Source: Rhodospirillaceae bacterium (lineage in GTDB: Bacteria; Pseudomonadota; Alphaproteobacteria; UBA828). From it: a DNA stretch of 46,160 nt. A program made the position numbers and the translations under genes. This document shows positions 35,211 through 41,944 of this stretch, in pieces (the stretch's first letter is position 1; each line of letters opens with the position of its first letter). The DNA lies in the NCBI GenBank assembly GCA_018666805.1, contig JABIXB010000041.1, positions 1 through 46,160 of the forward strand, in the 5' to 3' direction. Below the pieces are notes generated by a model. The model did not search any database. It saw only the letters and a program-made list of their open reading frames with translations, and was not told the DNA's origin.

Positions 35211-37187
35211 ATGGCAAGCATTGTCATTGTTGACGACCGTGTGACCAACCGCCGAATACTCTCGCGCTTGGCCGCTGAGTTAGAGACAAGGCCCGATGTC
35301 GAAACCTTCAGCGATCCTGTGCTGGCACTGGATTGGCTCGAGCACAATGAACCTGATTTGGTGGTTACGGACTATAAGATGCCCCATCTCGACGGTGCCG
35401 AATTTGTCGAATCCATGCGTCGTCTGCCGACTTGCGAGGATGTTCCGGTGATCGTCGTCACCGCCTATGAGGACAAAGGTTTCCGCTACAACGCTTTGAA
35501 TGCCGGCGCCACCGATTTTCTCCTGAGCCCCGTCGACCACCAAGAATTCCGCGCCCGCGCGCGCAATCTGCTGACCTTGCGCTGCCAACAGAGCCTACTC
35601 AAACGCCGCGCCCTGCAATTACAGGACAGGCTGGAGCTGAATAACCGCCTGCACAAAACCGCGCTCAAAGAAGGCAATGAGAAGCTTCGCCTCGTTATGA
35701 ACACGATTCCGGCGATGATTAATGCCACCGACACCGAGCACCGCTACGTATTCATGAATAATTTTCAGGCCTGGATGCTGGGCGTCGATCCGGAAGACAT
35801 TGTCGGCAAGAGTGCCGCAGCTCTGATGGAGCAGGAATATACCGAGCGCCACCACCGGCTTGACCGCCAGGTATTCGGGAGCGGCGCGTCAATCCCGGCA
35901 TTCGAAGAGGAGTTCTTTGATGCCACCGGACGGCGGCGTATTCTGCTGACGACGAAATCGCCCTTGCGCGACGGTGACGGCGCAGTCGCCAACGTGGTGA
36001 GCGCATCGGTGGAAATCAGCGACCGCAAGGCGGCCGAACTGGCGCTCGAAGACCAGCGCCAATTTCTGCGCGAGGTAATCGACCTCGATCCCAATATTAT
36101 TTTTTCCACCAGCCAGGCCGGAATTATCACGCTTGCCAACGCGGCGATGGCCAAGCTTTGCGGTATCACGGCGGATCAGTTGATCGGCCGCGCCCTGCTC
36201 AATGCCGTGCCGGTCAGCGCCGAGGCGGAGATTTTTCAGTCTGATGGCCAGCAGGTTTTACAAGGCGGCATGAATAAACTGCATACCGAGCGGCAACTGA
36301 CAGACAGCGCCGGTGACGTGCATTTTTTCCAAGTGGTCAATGTCGCCATCGAACTTGGCCGCACACGCACGCCGGCGGCACTCACCGTCGGCAGCGATAT
36401 ATCGGCGATCAAGAAATCACAGCTTGAAATGGACAAAGCCAAACAGGCGGCTGAAATCTCGGACCTCGGAAAATCAGAATTTCTTGCCCATGTAAGCCAT
36501 GAATTGCGTACCCCCCTGAACGCCATTGTCCGCCATTGCGAAATGATCAGCTCACCTCCGACAGGCCCGGCGAGCCAGCCCAACCGGGGCAAGATTGCCG
36601 AGGATATTGGCGCCAATGCACGCCATTTGCTCGGTCTGGTCGACGACATTGTCGATGTCTCGAATTACGAAGCCGGCAAATACACCCTGTTTGATCAGGA
36701 GCTCAATGTCGGCGCAATCATCCGCGATATCGCCCATCAGGTCGAATTGGAGGTCTCGGATGATCCGGTGCAACTGCGCATCGAAATCGCCGCCGACATG
36801 CCGGCGCTGATCGCCGATCCGCTTAGATTTCGCCAGGGAATGCTTAATTTGCTGGCAAATGCAGTGAAGTTTACGCCGCCTGGCGGTAAGGTCTTGGTAC
36901 GCGCGCTGCTAACGGAGCAAGGCGCCGTGCGCATTTCGGTTCAAGACCAAAATAAGGCGGTGAATAAACATGACGGCCCTTTGATGTTGAACCGTTTCGG
37001 GCAGGTCGAGAATGGCATGAACCGAAGCTATCCGGGAAGTGGACTGGACCTGCCGCTGTCGGTCGCCTTCATGAAAATGCACGATGCCGAGCTTGACCTG
37101 TGTAGCCGCGAGGGCGAAGGAAGCGAAGTTACGATTACCTTTCCCGCCATGCGAAGTGCGTGGGAACAAGAGGCATGTACACAGTGA
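35211..37187 (+). CDS. Receiver-PAS-PAS-histidine kinase-like protein with degenerate ATPase domain
   Basis: This 658-residue cytoplasmic protein has an N-terminal receiver (residues 1-125: Asp8/9, phospho-acceptor Asp54 in VVTDYKMPHLDG, Thr84). The usual Lys of the KP motif is Ser106 (LLSPVDHQEF). Two PAS domains follow, about 155-280 and 285-405, then a dimerisation/H-box domain ([16 protein letters not shown], His430). The ATPase domain keeps the N-box (NLLANAVKF, Asn550), but the G1 box DxGxG is VQDQNKAVN and G2 is PGSGLDL, so catalysis is doubtful. It has no membrane segment. It is followed by the rpfC-like gene after 72 bases and most likely receives phosphate from it. The receiver's end resembles that of RpfG, but there is no HD-GYP domain. 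Confidence 0.85.
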   Translation: MASIVIVDDRVTNRRILSRLAAELETRPDVETFSDPVLALDWLEHNEPDLVVTDYKMPHLDGAEFVESMRRLPTCEDVPVIVVTAYEDKGFRYNALNAGATDFLLSPVDHQEFRARARNLLTLRCQQSLLKRRALQLQDRLELNNRLHKTALKEGNEKLRLVMNTIPAMINATDTEHRYVFMNNFQAWMLGVDPEDIVGKSAAALMEQEYTERHHRLDRQVFGSGASIPAFEEEFFDATGRRRILLTTKSPLRDGDGAVANVVSASVEISDRKAAELALEDQRQFLREVIDLDPNIIFSTSQAGIITLANAAMAKLCGITADQLIGRALLNAVPVSAEAEIFQSDGQQVLQGGMNKLHTERQLTDSAGDVHFFQVVNVAIELGRTRTPAALTVGSDISAIKKSQLEMDKAKQAAEISDLGKSEFLAHVSHELRTPLNAIVRHCEMISSPPTGPASQPNRGKIAEDIGANARHLLGLVDDIVDVSNYEAGKYTLFDQELNVGAIIRDIAHQVELEVSDDPVQLRIEIAADMPALIADPLRFRQGMLNLLANAVKFTPPGGKVLVRALLTEQGAVRISVQDQNKAVNKHDGPLMLNRFGQVENGMNRSYPGSGLDLPLSVAFMKMHDAELDLCSREGEGSEVTITFPAMRSAWEQEACTQ

Positions 37188-37259: not shown

Positions 37260-39872
37260 ATGACGATATTAATGACAGACGACATAAAACCGTTGAATCC
37301 CTTGCAATGGTTCAAACACCGGCTTCGCGGCCGCGCGGACAGCGAGCACGAACAAATCATCGTGCGTATCGCTTTCTACGTCGTGATTCTGGCGCACATG
37401 ACCGTCGTTGCTACCGTCGGCACAGACCATCTTGGCGCCGTGCAAAATTCGACCCTGCTTGCATTCGGTGGCCTGGGCCTCTCGCTGTTGTTTCTCGCCC
37501 ACCTTCTGATTTGGCGGGGCCCCTCGATCCCTCGCCGCGCCGTCGCCATGCTGTTCGACACCGGCGGCATGTATTTGTTCCTCAATATTGGTGAGAGCGT
37601 TAGTGCTGCCTGGTACCCGGTCTTTCTGTTTGTCACGCTTGGCTACGGCTTCCGCTATGGCCAACACTACCTGTTCGCCTGTGCCCTCCTCAGCATCGCC
37701 GCATTCGGCGGCGTCATCTACACATCCGCCTTTTGGCAGATCCACCTTGAGCTCTCTATCGGACTGCTGATCGCACTTCTGGTGATTCCGGCCTACGCCT
37801 CGACGCTGCTTAAAAAACTAACCCATGCCAAGCTTCAAGCCGAGGAGGCGAGCCGCGCCAAGAGTCAGTTCCTCGCCAATATGAGCCACGAATTGCGCAC
37901 GCCGTTGAACGCCATCACCGGTATGTCGGATCTGCTGCTCGGCTCTAAAATCGATAATGAACAACGCGATATGGGCAGCACCATTAAGACATCGGCGCGC
38001 GCCCTTCTCACCCTGATTAACGAGATTCTCGATTTCGAGAAAATCGAGGCCGGCAAGGTCACGATCAGCCATGAGGATTTCGATCTGCACACCACATTGG
38101 CCAGTGTGCGCTCGATCATGGATACCCAGGCCGCCGCCAAGGGGCTGCAATTTAATATCCATATTGCCCCCGACGCGCCCTATCTGTTGCGCGGTGACGA
38201 ACCGCATCTACAGCAAATATTGGTCAACCTGACCGCCAATGCGATCAAATTTACCGAAGCGGGCCGTGTGAGTGTGAATGTCGAAATGAGTGAGCGCTAC
38301 GGCGGCCGGCTTAAAATGTTGTTCGAAGTCTCAGATACCGGTATTGGCGTGCCGCCCAGCCTGACCTCGCGCATCTTTGAAAGTTTTACCCAGGGCGATC
38401 CATCGAGCAGTAAGAAATTCGGCGGCACGGGCCTTGGCCTGGCGATTTGCCGGCAATTGGTCGATCTCATGGGCGGCGAGATTGGCGTTCAAAGTGAAGA
38501 AGGCGAAGGCAGCACATTCTGGTTCTCGGCTGAATTCGACGTACGCGCCTTTGCCGCAGATTCCGTTACGCCGGTGCTGGGCGGGCGCGATGCGCATGCC
38601 CTGATCGTTTGCGGTGATAACGACGAGAGCCGGAATTTGGGCGAAATGCTGCACGGCATCGGTCTCCCGTTCAGCCGCATCGGCCATGCCGCGCGTGCGA
38701 TTATGCAAATTCGCAATCGCCCGTTTGACGAAAATCCGGAAATCGTCTTGCTCGACGAACGTAGCGCTGGCGCCGATGTCGCCTGGTTTGCGTCGCAATT
38801 GCGCGAACAGGAGAGAGGCGATGAGATTTCCGTCGTCGCCATCAATCATGGTCACAGCACCGCCGAAGAGCTGGCCGCAACGCGCACCGATTGTCTCGCC
38901 ATGCTTGAGGCGCCGGTGGAGCAAGCCCATCTTGCCGCCGCCCTGCACGCCGCCTTGGCGCAACGAAATATTGCCTGGGAATCCGGCGATACGGCGAATC
39001 AAACCTGGACCGTCACCGAGCGCAAACCGTTGCGCGTTCTGGTCGGCGAAGACAATCGCGTGAACCGCAAAGTGATCGGTAAGATTCTGCAGCGCGCCGG
39101 TCATTTTGTCGAATTGACAGATGACGGCGAGCACATGCTCGATCTCTTGGAGCAGGATATGTTCGATATCGCCCTCGTCGATATCAATATGCCGGGGTTG
39201 AGTGGCCTGGAAGCGGCCAAGCTCTACCGCTTTACCCACCCCGAGGATCAGCAAATTCCGATCATTGCCCTCACTGCCGACGCCACGGCGGAAGCAAAAC
39301 AGCTAAGTGAGGAAGCCGGCATGGATGTGCATCTCACCAAACCGGTTGATGCGGAACGGCTGCTGCACACCATGGACATGCTGACCACAGCCAAAGGGGA
39401 TAAGACCGGACGCAGTGAAGTGGTAGAGGAGAAAGCGGTGCCGGAAATCGACGACATCAGAAAACATCCACAATTTGAAACGCTGGCGGAACCGGCCGTC
39501 GAGGCGCGCGTGCTGCAAGAATTGCGCGAACTCGGCGGCGGCGATGACTTCTTCGAAGAACTGATTGAGGACTTCGTCACCGACGCAGCAGCACTTCTGG
39601 GCGATATGGCGGAAGCACAACGCAACGGCGCGCTCACCGAATTCCGCGATCATGCCCATGCCTTGCGCAGCAGCGCGGCTAATATCGGCGCGTTGCTCCT
39701 GCACAAAAAGCTGCTCGATTTGCGCGAGATGAGCAAAGCGGAACTCGACAGCAACGGCGCCGAGGCGATGCACGCGCTCAATAGCGAGTTCGCTCAGGTA
39801 AGGGAGTTTTTCGCCAAACAGCTGGGAATTGTCGAGCCGCTGATCAACAGCATTTCGCCTGCCGCAGAGTAG
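37260..39872 (+). CDS. rpfC: RpfC-like DSF sensor hybrid histidine kinase
   Basis: This 870-residue hybrid kinase starts at an ATG with AGGTG 6 bases upstream; the frame opens at a TTG at 37212. There are about five membrane helices at residues 30-185 (with [23 protein letters not shown], like Xanthomonas RpfC). These are followed by [23 protein letters not shown] (His210) and an intact ATPase domain ([27 protein letters not shown]). Residues about 445-565 look like a degenerate receiver without the full acidic pocket. A true receiver follows (Asp641 in ALVDINMPG, Lys694), then an Hpt domain with [12 protein letters not shown] (His800). It should sense a diffusible fatty-acid signal and relay phosphate. 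Confidence 0.85.
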
Positions 39873-39914: not shown

Positions 39915-40913
39915 CTAGGAGGAAATGTTTTCGGCGGAGCTACTGCCCAGGGTCGTTTCGCGGCGTTTGTTTTGGGCGCGGACAAGACGGTCCATTTTGC
40001 GCAGGCTTGTATCATCAAGCTCCAACGCGGCGTCCACCCAAATATCCATGATGTCCGTCATTTCCTGGTAATCGACCGGGCTATAACGCCGCCGTACCTT
40101 GTAAAGCGCGCGGCGCGAGGTAAATTGCCGATTGTTGCGCGAGACATATTCATAAAGTGCCTCGCGCCCCTCTCCCGCTTTCACCACCTTGTCGACAATG
40201 CCCATCTCGTGCAGTTCCGGCGCGGTATAAATTTTACCGCTGAAGATAACCTTCTCGGCCAATACCGGGCCGACGCGGCGCGCGAGAAAACTATACGCGC
40301 CCATGCCAGGGAACAGATTGAAAAGAATCTCAGGCAGCCCGCAACGTGCCGTCTCCTCGGCAATGATCACATCGCTGGAAAGCGCCGCTTCAAAGCCACC
40401 GCCCAAGGCCTCGCCCTGAATCAAGGCCACCGTCACGACCGGCAGGCCGAGTTTTTCGGAAGACAGATAGCAGACATCGATACACGCCTTGCCGTATTTA
40501 TATAGCGCCTCGCGGTCACGCCGGCCGACGAGTTCAACGATCAAACGCAAATCGCCGCCGAGATTGAAAATGCCGGGGACATCGGAAGCCCACACCAAAT
40601 AATTAAATGGCGGCGCCATCGGCGCGCTGCCGGACGGGAGATACTTGCTCTTTAAGCGCTCTTGAAAGGTGCCCAGATCGCGCAACAGTCCCGGCGTAAA
40701 AATCGGCCGCTCCGTGTGCCGATGCAAACACCAGAGAATTTTTTCGCGCTCGTCGAGCTCAATCGAAATCTCGTTATAGTCATTTTCGAGAGGGTCAACG
40801 CTCACATAAGACGCCTGATGAAGAGAGCGAATCCGCTCCTCAACATCGGCCTGAGAATCTTCCGTGCTGCGGCCACCGCTTACGACCGAAAAAGGTATGA
40901 CGCTATCAGCCAT
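39915..40913 (-). CDS. rpfF: RpfF-like DSF synthase (crotonase superfamily)
   Basis: This 332-residue crotonase-fold protein has a distinctive N-terminal and insert pattern. PPFNYLVWASDVPGIFNLGGDLRL and KYGKACIDVCYL are features of RpfF rather than of ordinary enoyl-CoA hydratases. The two catalytic Glu residues of RpfF align: Glu175 (GGGFEAAL) and Glu195 (GLPEILFNLFPGMGA), 20 residues apart as in the Xanthomonas enzyme. The product would be a cis-2-unsaturated fatty acid from acyl-ACP or acyl-CoA. ATG 40913 is preferred, with GTGGGA upstream; ATG 40928 and GTG 40964 are alternatives. It is convergent to the rpfC-like gene. Confidence 0.88.
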   Translation of the reverse strand: MADSVIPFSVVSGGRSTEDSQADVEERIRSLHQASYVSVDPLENDYNEISIELDEREKILWCLHRHTERPIFTPGLLRDLGTFQERLKSKYLPSGSAPMAPPFNYLVWASDVPGIFNLGGDLRLIVELVGRRDREALYKYGKACIDVCYLSSEKLGLPVVTVALIQGEALGGGFEAALSSDVIIAEETARCGLPEILFNLFPGMGAYSFLARRVGPVLAEKVIFSGKIYTAPELHEMGIVDKVVKAGEGREALYEYVSRNNRQFTSRRALYKVRRRYSPVDYQEMTDIMDIWVDAALELDDTSLRKMDRLVRAQNKRRETTLGSSSAENISS

Positions 40914-41033: not shown

Positions 41034-41185
41034 TAACTTTTTTAAGAAAAATATTTATGTCGAATCAGTCGCTTATACGCCGCTGCTCATACATGTTATG
41101 AGAGAAACCGCCGCAAACCCGCTGGCACTCTGCCGTTTCTACGGTCATAATCCGGCCGTGAAAACACCAGGAACAAGGCTTGAAT

Positions 41186-41944
41186 ATGCCCAATAACCTA
41201 CAAATCGAGCGCCTCGGTGCCAGCGTGCTGGTGCTCCTCGACAGGCCCGACGTGCGAAATGCGGTGAATTACGAATTGATCGATGAATTCGAGGAAACGC
41301 TGGACGCGCTCAACCGGGATACGGATTGCCGCTCAATCATCATTAGCGGGTCGGGCGAGCGGGCATTTTGCGCCGGCATGGACCTAAACGTCGCGCGTGG
41401 CCTGGATGCGGACAGCTCCGCCGATTGGCTGGTGCGCCTGAAGCGGCTTTATGAAGCGGTGCGGGGGCTCGACAAACCCTCGGTTGCGGCACTGAACGGC
41501 GTCGCCGCCGGCGCCGGCTATCAACTCGCCCTGCTCGCCGATTTACGCGTTGGGCATAAAGCGGCACGCATGGGCCAGCCGGAAATTAATGTCGGTCTCG
41601 CCAGTGTTCTCGGCGCCCATATCATGGCGCCTTTTCTCGGCCATGCCCGCACGGTGGAGCTGACGCTGAGCGGCCGCCTGATGGACGGCGACGAATGTTT
41701 TCGTCTCGGCCTGTTTAATCATCTGGTCGATGCCGCCGAGGTGCACGCCAAGGCGATCGCGGTTGCCGAGGAACTGGCGCAAAAGCCGCCCACGGCCATG
41801 CGCCTTACCAAGCAGCGCTTCCGCGAGGACGGCCAGGCGGCGTTTGACGCCACTTTCGAGATTGCTACCCGCCTGCAACGCGAAGCCTATACCAGTGGTG
41901 AGCCGCAACGGGTAATGGCCGAATATTTCGCCAAGAAGGGCTAA
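41186..41944 (+). CDS. Enoyl-CoA hydratase/isomerase family protein
   Basis: This 252-residue crotonase is about the usual length. SIIISGSGERAFCAGMDLNVARG is the first oxyanion-hole segment, and AALNGVAAGAGYQLALLADLRVGHKAARMGQPEINVG the second. Where crotonases have the second catalytic Glu, MGQPEINVG keeps a Glu. The upstream TTG at 41180 is unlikely; AAGG is 7 bases before the ATG at 41186. It is divergent from rpfF across the CtrA-type box. It could process or recycle signal or fatty-acid precursors, but may simply be a beta-oxidation enzyme. Confidence 0.9.
   Translation: MPNNLQIERLGASVLVLLDRPDVRNAVNYELIDEFEETLDALNRDTDCRSIIISGSGERAFCAGMDLNVARGLDADSSADWLVRLKRLYEAVRGLDKPSVAALNGVAAGAGYQLALLADLRVGHKAARMGQPEINVGLASVLGAHIMAPFLGHARTVELTLSGRLMDGDECFRLGLFNHLVDAAEVHAKAIAVAEELAQKPPTAMRLTKQRFREDGQAAFDATFEIATRLQREAYTSGEPQRVMAEYFAKKG

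Follow-up and report, generated by a model that had tools for sequence, protein, structure and literature searches.

The window analysed in this study is a 46,160-nucleotide stretch of a Rhodospirillaceae bacterium genome (contig JABIXB010000041.1 of assembly GCA_018666805.1). Three adjacent genes of an rpf-type locus lie within it, encoding a receiver-first protein in the position of rpfG, an RpfC-like hybrid kinase and an RpfF-like synthase of the diffusible signal factor (DSF), as listed in Table 1.

Table 1. Features of the rpf-type locus, with positions in the window.
Feature	Position	Strand	Evidence
rpfG-slot protein, 658 aa, receiver-PAS-PAS-HisKA-HATPase, broken ATP site	35211..37187	+	ORF, Pfam, alignment
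Receiver domain (residues 4-117), acidic pair D8/D9, T84	35220..35561	+	PF00072, 82.6 bits; purifying selection
Asp54 codon, phospho-acceptor	35370..35372	+	Residue check, alignment
Ser106 codon at usual receiver Lys position; relatives Ser or Thr	35526..35528	+	Alignment
PAS_4 domain (165-273)	35703..36029	+	PF08448
Second PAS domain (285-368)	36063..36314	+	PF00989
HisKA (DHp) domain (421-489), intact H-box SHELRTPLN	36471..36677	+	Pfam, alignment
His430 codon	36498..36500	+	Residue check, alignment
HATPase_c domain (536-646), N-box retained	36816..37148	+	PF02518, 60.5 bits
Broken G1 box, D579-Q-N-K-A583 (family D-x-G-x-G)	36945..36959	+	Alignment, frame check
Asp613, G2-box Gly otherwise invariant	37047..37049	+	Alignment
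rpfC-like hybrid kinase with hydrophobic segments at the N-terminus, HisKA/HATPase intact, receiver (D641) and Hpt (H800)	37260..39872	+	Pfam; matches solved RpfC receiver 3m6m_D
rpfF-like DSF synthase, convergent with rpfC	39915..40913	-	Family profiles, alignment

The reading frame of the slot protein is free of stops across its 658 codons, and residue checks together with Pfam confirm what an earlier note on this DNA had described: a receiver with Asp54, a PAS-PAS-kinase output, His430, Ser106 (in the context LLSPVD) and a G1 stretch reading VQDQNKAVN. That note was correct on the ATP site as far as G1 and missed a second lesion, in the G2 stretch (PGSGLDL), where Asp613 replaces the Gly of relatives. 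When held against the features of an active HisKA kinase, the H and N boxes (N-box NLLANA) are present and the G1 and G2 boxes are broken, while the HATPase_c score indicates that the kinase fold is retained. The remaining two reading frames across the G1 stretch contain no conserved motif, which rules out a hidden pair of frameshifts in the gene.

The rpfC gene starts 72 bp downstream of the slot gene, and its product combines membrane input, HisKA, HATPase with intact ATP-site boxes (DTGIG and GGTGLGLA), a receiver and an Hpt domain whose match of 23.3 bits falls slightly below the Pfam cut-off of 24.6. An extra stretch of about 150 residues between its ATPase and receiver (window 38600-38960) has no Pfam match, resembles a degenerate receiver and is found in most relatives. 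The RpfF-like protein scores 355 bits against PRK08788 (over the cut-off of 177) and 244 bits against NCBIfam NF053515 (under the cut-off of 550), and the alignment shows both catalytic Glu residues retained, a pair that we take to correspond to E141/E161 of Xcc. Additionally, a second enoyl-CoA hydratase gene lies near rpfF (window 41180-41944), as it also does in G012 and G010; it may take part in DSF turnover or in supplying precursors.

Across the class, an rpfF match was found in at least 23 of 385 genomes, a lower bound based on the best five candidates scored per genome. A receiver-PAS protein stands beside rpfC in 17 of these 23; the others comprise one genome (G366) whose slot protein lies beside rpfF without rpfC, two with loci cut by contig ends and three with neither. 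In every sampled rpfF-rpfC locus with an assembled slot, the gene before rpfC encodes a receiver-PAS protein, and HD-GYP was found neither in the window protein nor in the rpf loci of relatives in the sampled class. The replacement of RpfG suggested earlier for this one genome is thus borne out more widely than was claimed. A literature search, with subscription journals mostly outside its reach, returned no paper listed as describing this arrangement.

The output domains in the slot are a HisKA kinase in most genomes and GGDEF-EAL in G151, suggesting that the slot output is exchangeable. The G151 protein (L106:11673-13868) has the order receiver(SPVD)-PAS-GGDEF-EAL and directly ties receivers of this type to cyclic di-GMP enzymes. 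A separate arrangement is seen in G252, in which two rpfF-like genes occur at separate loci (L104, L110), one beside an EAL-motif protein and neither with rpfC.

The absent receiver Lys had previously been read as a loss, and this did not hold. Ser takes its place (Thr in G036) across all 27 slot proteins and two paralogues, and the motif S/T-P-[VI]-D is common to every relative examined. Damage to the receiver at the Lys position is ruled out, as all relatives and paralogues examined carry Ser or Thr there, and Ser106 is, by its distribution, an ancestral family trait and not the mark of a dead receiver. One paralogue in the window's own genome (L019:4443-6455, G000:C131) joins an S-P-V-D receiver and PAS to a different, intact kinase core (AHELNQPL), and its counterpart in the congener G007 likewise lies near a thiolase-like gene.

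Orthologues of the slot protein were drawn from the genome's own family, its class and the families of matches. At least 17 full or nearly full orthologues were recovered (37-50% identity to the window protein; a lower bound, with the best three candidates per genome scored), whereas a scan of genome contigs returned no named orthologue and a scan of plasmids none. The rpfC gene directly follows the slot gene in all 17, and rpfF is convergent in all seven orthologue loci with sufficiently long contigs. Both the G1 box (D-[STN]-G-x-G) and the G2 box are intact in 17 of 17, leaving the window protein as the only one of 18 aligned sequences that lacks the G1 and G2 glycines; the ATP site was therefore lost on the window's own line. 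A tree of the receiver and PAS1 places the window protein as sister to G012 and G003 (support 99/97), both of which are intact. A family-wide pseudokinase is ruled out by these counts, and the dead kinase proposed in the earlier note stands for the window genome and fails for the family.

The same note held that intact orthologues would point to a local error, and the losses are indeed unshared. Misassembly or a wrong consensus at the ATP site could also draw on the fragmentation of the assembly, which consists of 317 contigs. Such an error would have to account for the loss of three glycines from two distinct boxes along with linked changes in the DHp domain, however, and no alternative frame restores the motif; we consider it scarcely credible.

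Loss of ATP use may extend to other slot proteins. The G265 protein has a receiver and HisKA with no detectable ATPase, and the reading frame and codon pattern of its gene are normal through the gene end. The slot protein of G366 (L097:9834-11387) is a receiver(SPVD)-PAS-HisKA_2 protein, also with no detectable ATPase, that adjoins rpfF with no rpfC nearby and is reminiscent of PhyT-type phosphotransferases. With the ATPase undetectable in both, loss would have occurred more than once and looks recurrent among slot proteins, although G265 and G366 form long branches of unsure position in the tree.

The two halves of the window protein have changed unequally. At positions invariant in the other 17 sequences, it departs at 5 of 22 in the DHp domain and 4 of 18 in the ATPase region, as opposed to 1 of 43 in the receiver (transmitter 9/40 vs. 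receiver 1/43, Fisher p 0.006). Relative-rate tests against G012 used three outgroups: excess change in the DHp domain of the window protein was found with two (p 0.006 and 0.0005; the third 0.17), and no excess in the receiver, rpfC or rpfF. For the receiver-PAS1 part, dN/dS against congeners is about 0.05, similar to the neighbouring zur-type gene; this estimate spans the N-terminal part only and the whole divergence time, with the congener genes partly assembled. The receiver is under strong purifying selection, suggesting that it still has a use or lost it only lately; the transmitter, by contrast, has been altered.

The congeners bear on the main rival explanation, namely that the genus is losing its entire DSF output branch and that the window copy represents an early step of this, its transmitter having been the first part to break. 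In G007, only the first 54 codons remain (L070:8642-8869, end of G007:C54), breaking at the phospho-Asp and followed by unrelated sequence until the contig end. In G005 (L072:8140-8600, G005:C6), the zur-type gene leads directly to the second enoyl-CoA hydratase, and znuA, the receiver kinase, rpfC and rpfF are absent. The G006 gene has a deletion of six residues in its receiver and is interrupted by a contig end, as is the G009 gene; searches of the relatives' sequences did not find the missing remainder in G006, G007 or G009. On a Nitratireductor plasmid, sequence flanking a recombinase gene matches the contig end of G007 (82% over 60 bases), making a mobile element a plausible, putative cause of the break. 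Loss of the cluster is under way in the genus, and the nine drifted transmitter positions of the window protein agree with decay. Set against it are the uninterrupted frame, the strongly constrained receiver, rates in rpfC and rpfF equal to those of G012, and the intact catalytic residues of RpfF. The window copy may be either an early stage of cluster loss or a reworked survivor, and we regard decay of the whole branch as a possible but rather doubtful account of it.

Our preferred reading, to which we assign about an even chance as a whole, is that a family of receiver-first PAS histidine kinases stands in for RpfG beside rpfC and rpfF in this class and that the window copy, unable to autophosphorylate, acts through its receiver and an ATP-independent His430. 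RpfC would sense a DSF-type fatty acid and, most likely, pass phosphate from Hpt His800 to Asp54 of the window protein, a transfer suggested by what is known of the family and by gene order. In most relatives, an active kinase would then come under control of the receiver. The window protein has lost its ATP site, so it probably cannot autophosphorylate and would instead rely on its receiver, its PAS domains and the dimeric, ATP-independent His430 domain, the last probably serving as a phosphotransfer node or as a phosphatase acting on a response regulator from another locus. Possible routes after Asp54 lead through His430 to that regulator, through phosphatase control of a regulator or through a phospho-switched scaffold, and the kept H-box favours relay or phosphatase over scaffold. 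Several points count against the preferred reading. The DHp domain, on which relay or phosphatase activity depends, shows rapid divergence in the window protein; the congeners, with their cluster disrupted or missing, fit decay; the dN/dS estimate is confined to the N-terminal part and spans the whole divergence time; and the long branches of G265 and G366 are of unsure position, G366 moreover lacking rpfC.

A scaffold that ties DSF to another pathway, as raised in the earlier note, is possible. In its DivL-type form, the broken transmitter would bind a response regulator or kinase and report the phosphorylation state with no phosphotransfer. DivL, a PAS-rich pseudokinase, operates in this way (PMC4211667), and the retained kinase fold of the window protein suits such a role, but DivL has lost its His (Tyr550) whereas the window protein has His430 and the whole H-box, pointing to a use for the His. 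We therefore judge a pure scaffold unlikely.

The remaining alternative is that the true RpfC partner is an HD-GYP protein of the RpfG type encoded outside this locus, the window protein being a side branch. The genome does encode three HD-GYP proteins, as the earlier note had thought worth looking for, and one has an N-terminal receiver; none is of the simple receiver-HD-GYP kind. By domains named by eye, the receiver-bearing protein is longer and its gene immediately follows a kinase-like ATPase gene of its own, and the other two carry a GAF-like N-terminus and a long membrane-bound sensory N-terminus, respectively. Additionally, an HD-GYP match is absent in three of nine relatives carrying the trio of genes. 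With these HD-GYP types and the relatives that have no match, a distant RpfG is quite improbable.

Extending the preferred reading from the window to the class yields a more speculative proposal, which we put forward only tentatively: a third DSF arrangement in which the S-P-x-D receiver-PAS protein would be the standard RpfC partner, with ATP use lost repeatedly (window, G265, G366) and the protein retained as a phosphorelay or phosphatase node independent of ATP, so that the signal would run from DSF to receiver to His to regulator and not to cyclic di-GMP. If true, a conserved rpfF-rpfC locus with a receiver-first kinase would provide a DSF route that does not need cyclic di-GMP, and recurrent disappearance of the ATP site from an RpfC partner would show in nature how a kinase can become a relay or phosphatase.

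The two core DSF pathways described in review, RpfC/RpfG and RpfR, both end in cyclic di-GMP (PMC4504480). In Xanthomonas, the order is rpfG-(rpfH)-rpfC, convergent with rpfF (PMC4504480); the window shares the convergent rpfF-type synthase and rpfC-type hybrid kinase with a receiver gene directly 5' of rpfC, but its receiver is fused to PAS-PAS-histidine kinase and not to an HD-GYP output, rpfH is absent and Lys is replaced by Ser. The RpfR system (PAS-GGDEF-EAL) resembles the family in having a PAS-linked output next to rpfF and, in the G151 slot, GGDEF-EAL, and PAS-GGDEF-EAL (Methylobacterium) and EAL (Sphingomonas) proteins neighbour rpfF on plasmids; the window locus differs in having rpfC and a receiver and no GGDEF or EAL. 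RpfS, which binds DSF (PMC4504480), likewise pairs PAS_4 with a histidine kinase in a DSF setting, whereas the description places its PAS_4 at the N-terminus and mentions no receiver (PMC4504480).

For the kinase itself, ExsG, a soluble histidine kinase, has a receiver N-terminal to the kinase core, as in the window family, and its phosphorylated receiver inhibits that core (PMC3899027). ExsG would be the natural model for relatives with a live kinase, although it has an HWE core, active ATP binding and no tie to DSF. DivL is likewise a PAS-rich histidine kinase lacking kinase activity (PMC4211667), which for the window protein is predicted, and differs in its replaced His. ChpT does not autophosphorylate with ATP and transfers phosphate via its His (PMC3433190), and PhyT acts in a receiver-His-receiver relay from SdrG to PhyR (PMC5898713). 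In both, phosphate travels via a conserved His, ChpT having a kinase-like fold that cannot use ATP and PhyT linking two receivers, and the window protein, with His430 kept and its ATP site lost, may be of this kind. They are separate proteins with no fused receiver-PAS, however, and phosphotransfer has been demonstrated for them experimentally.
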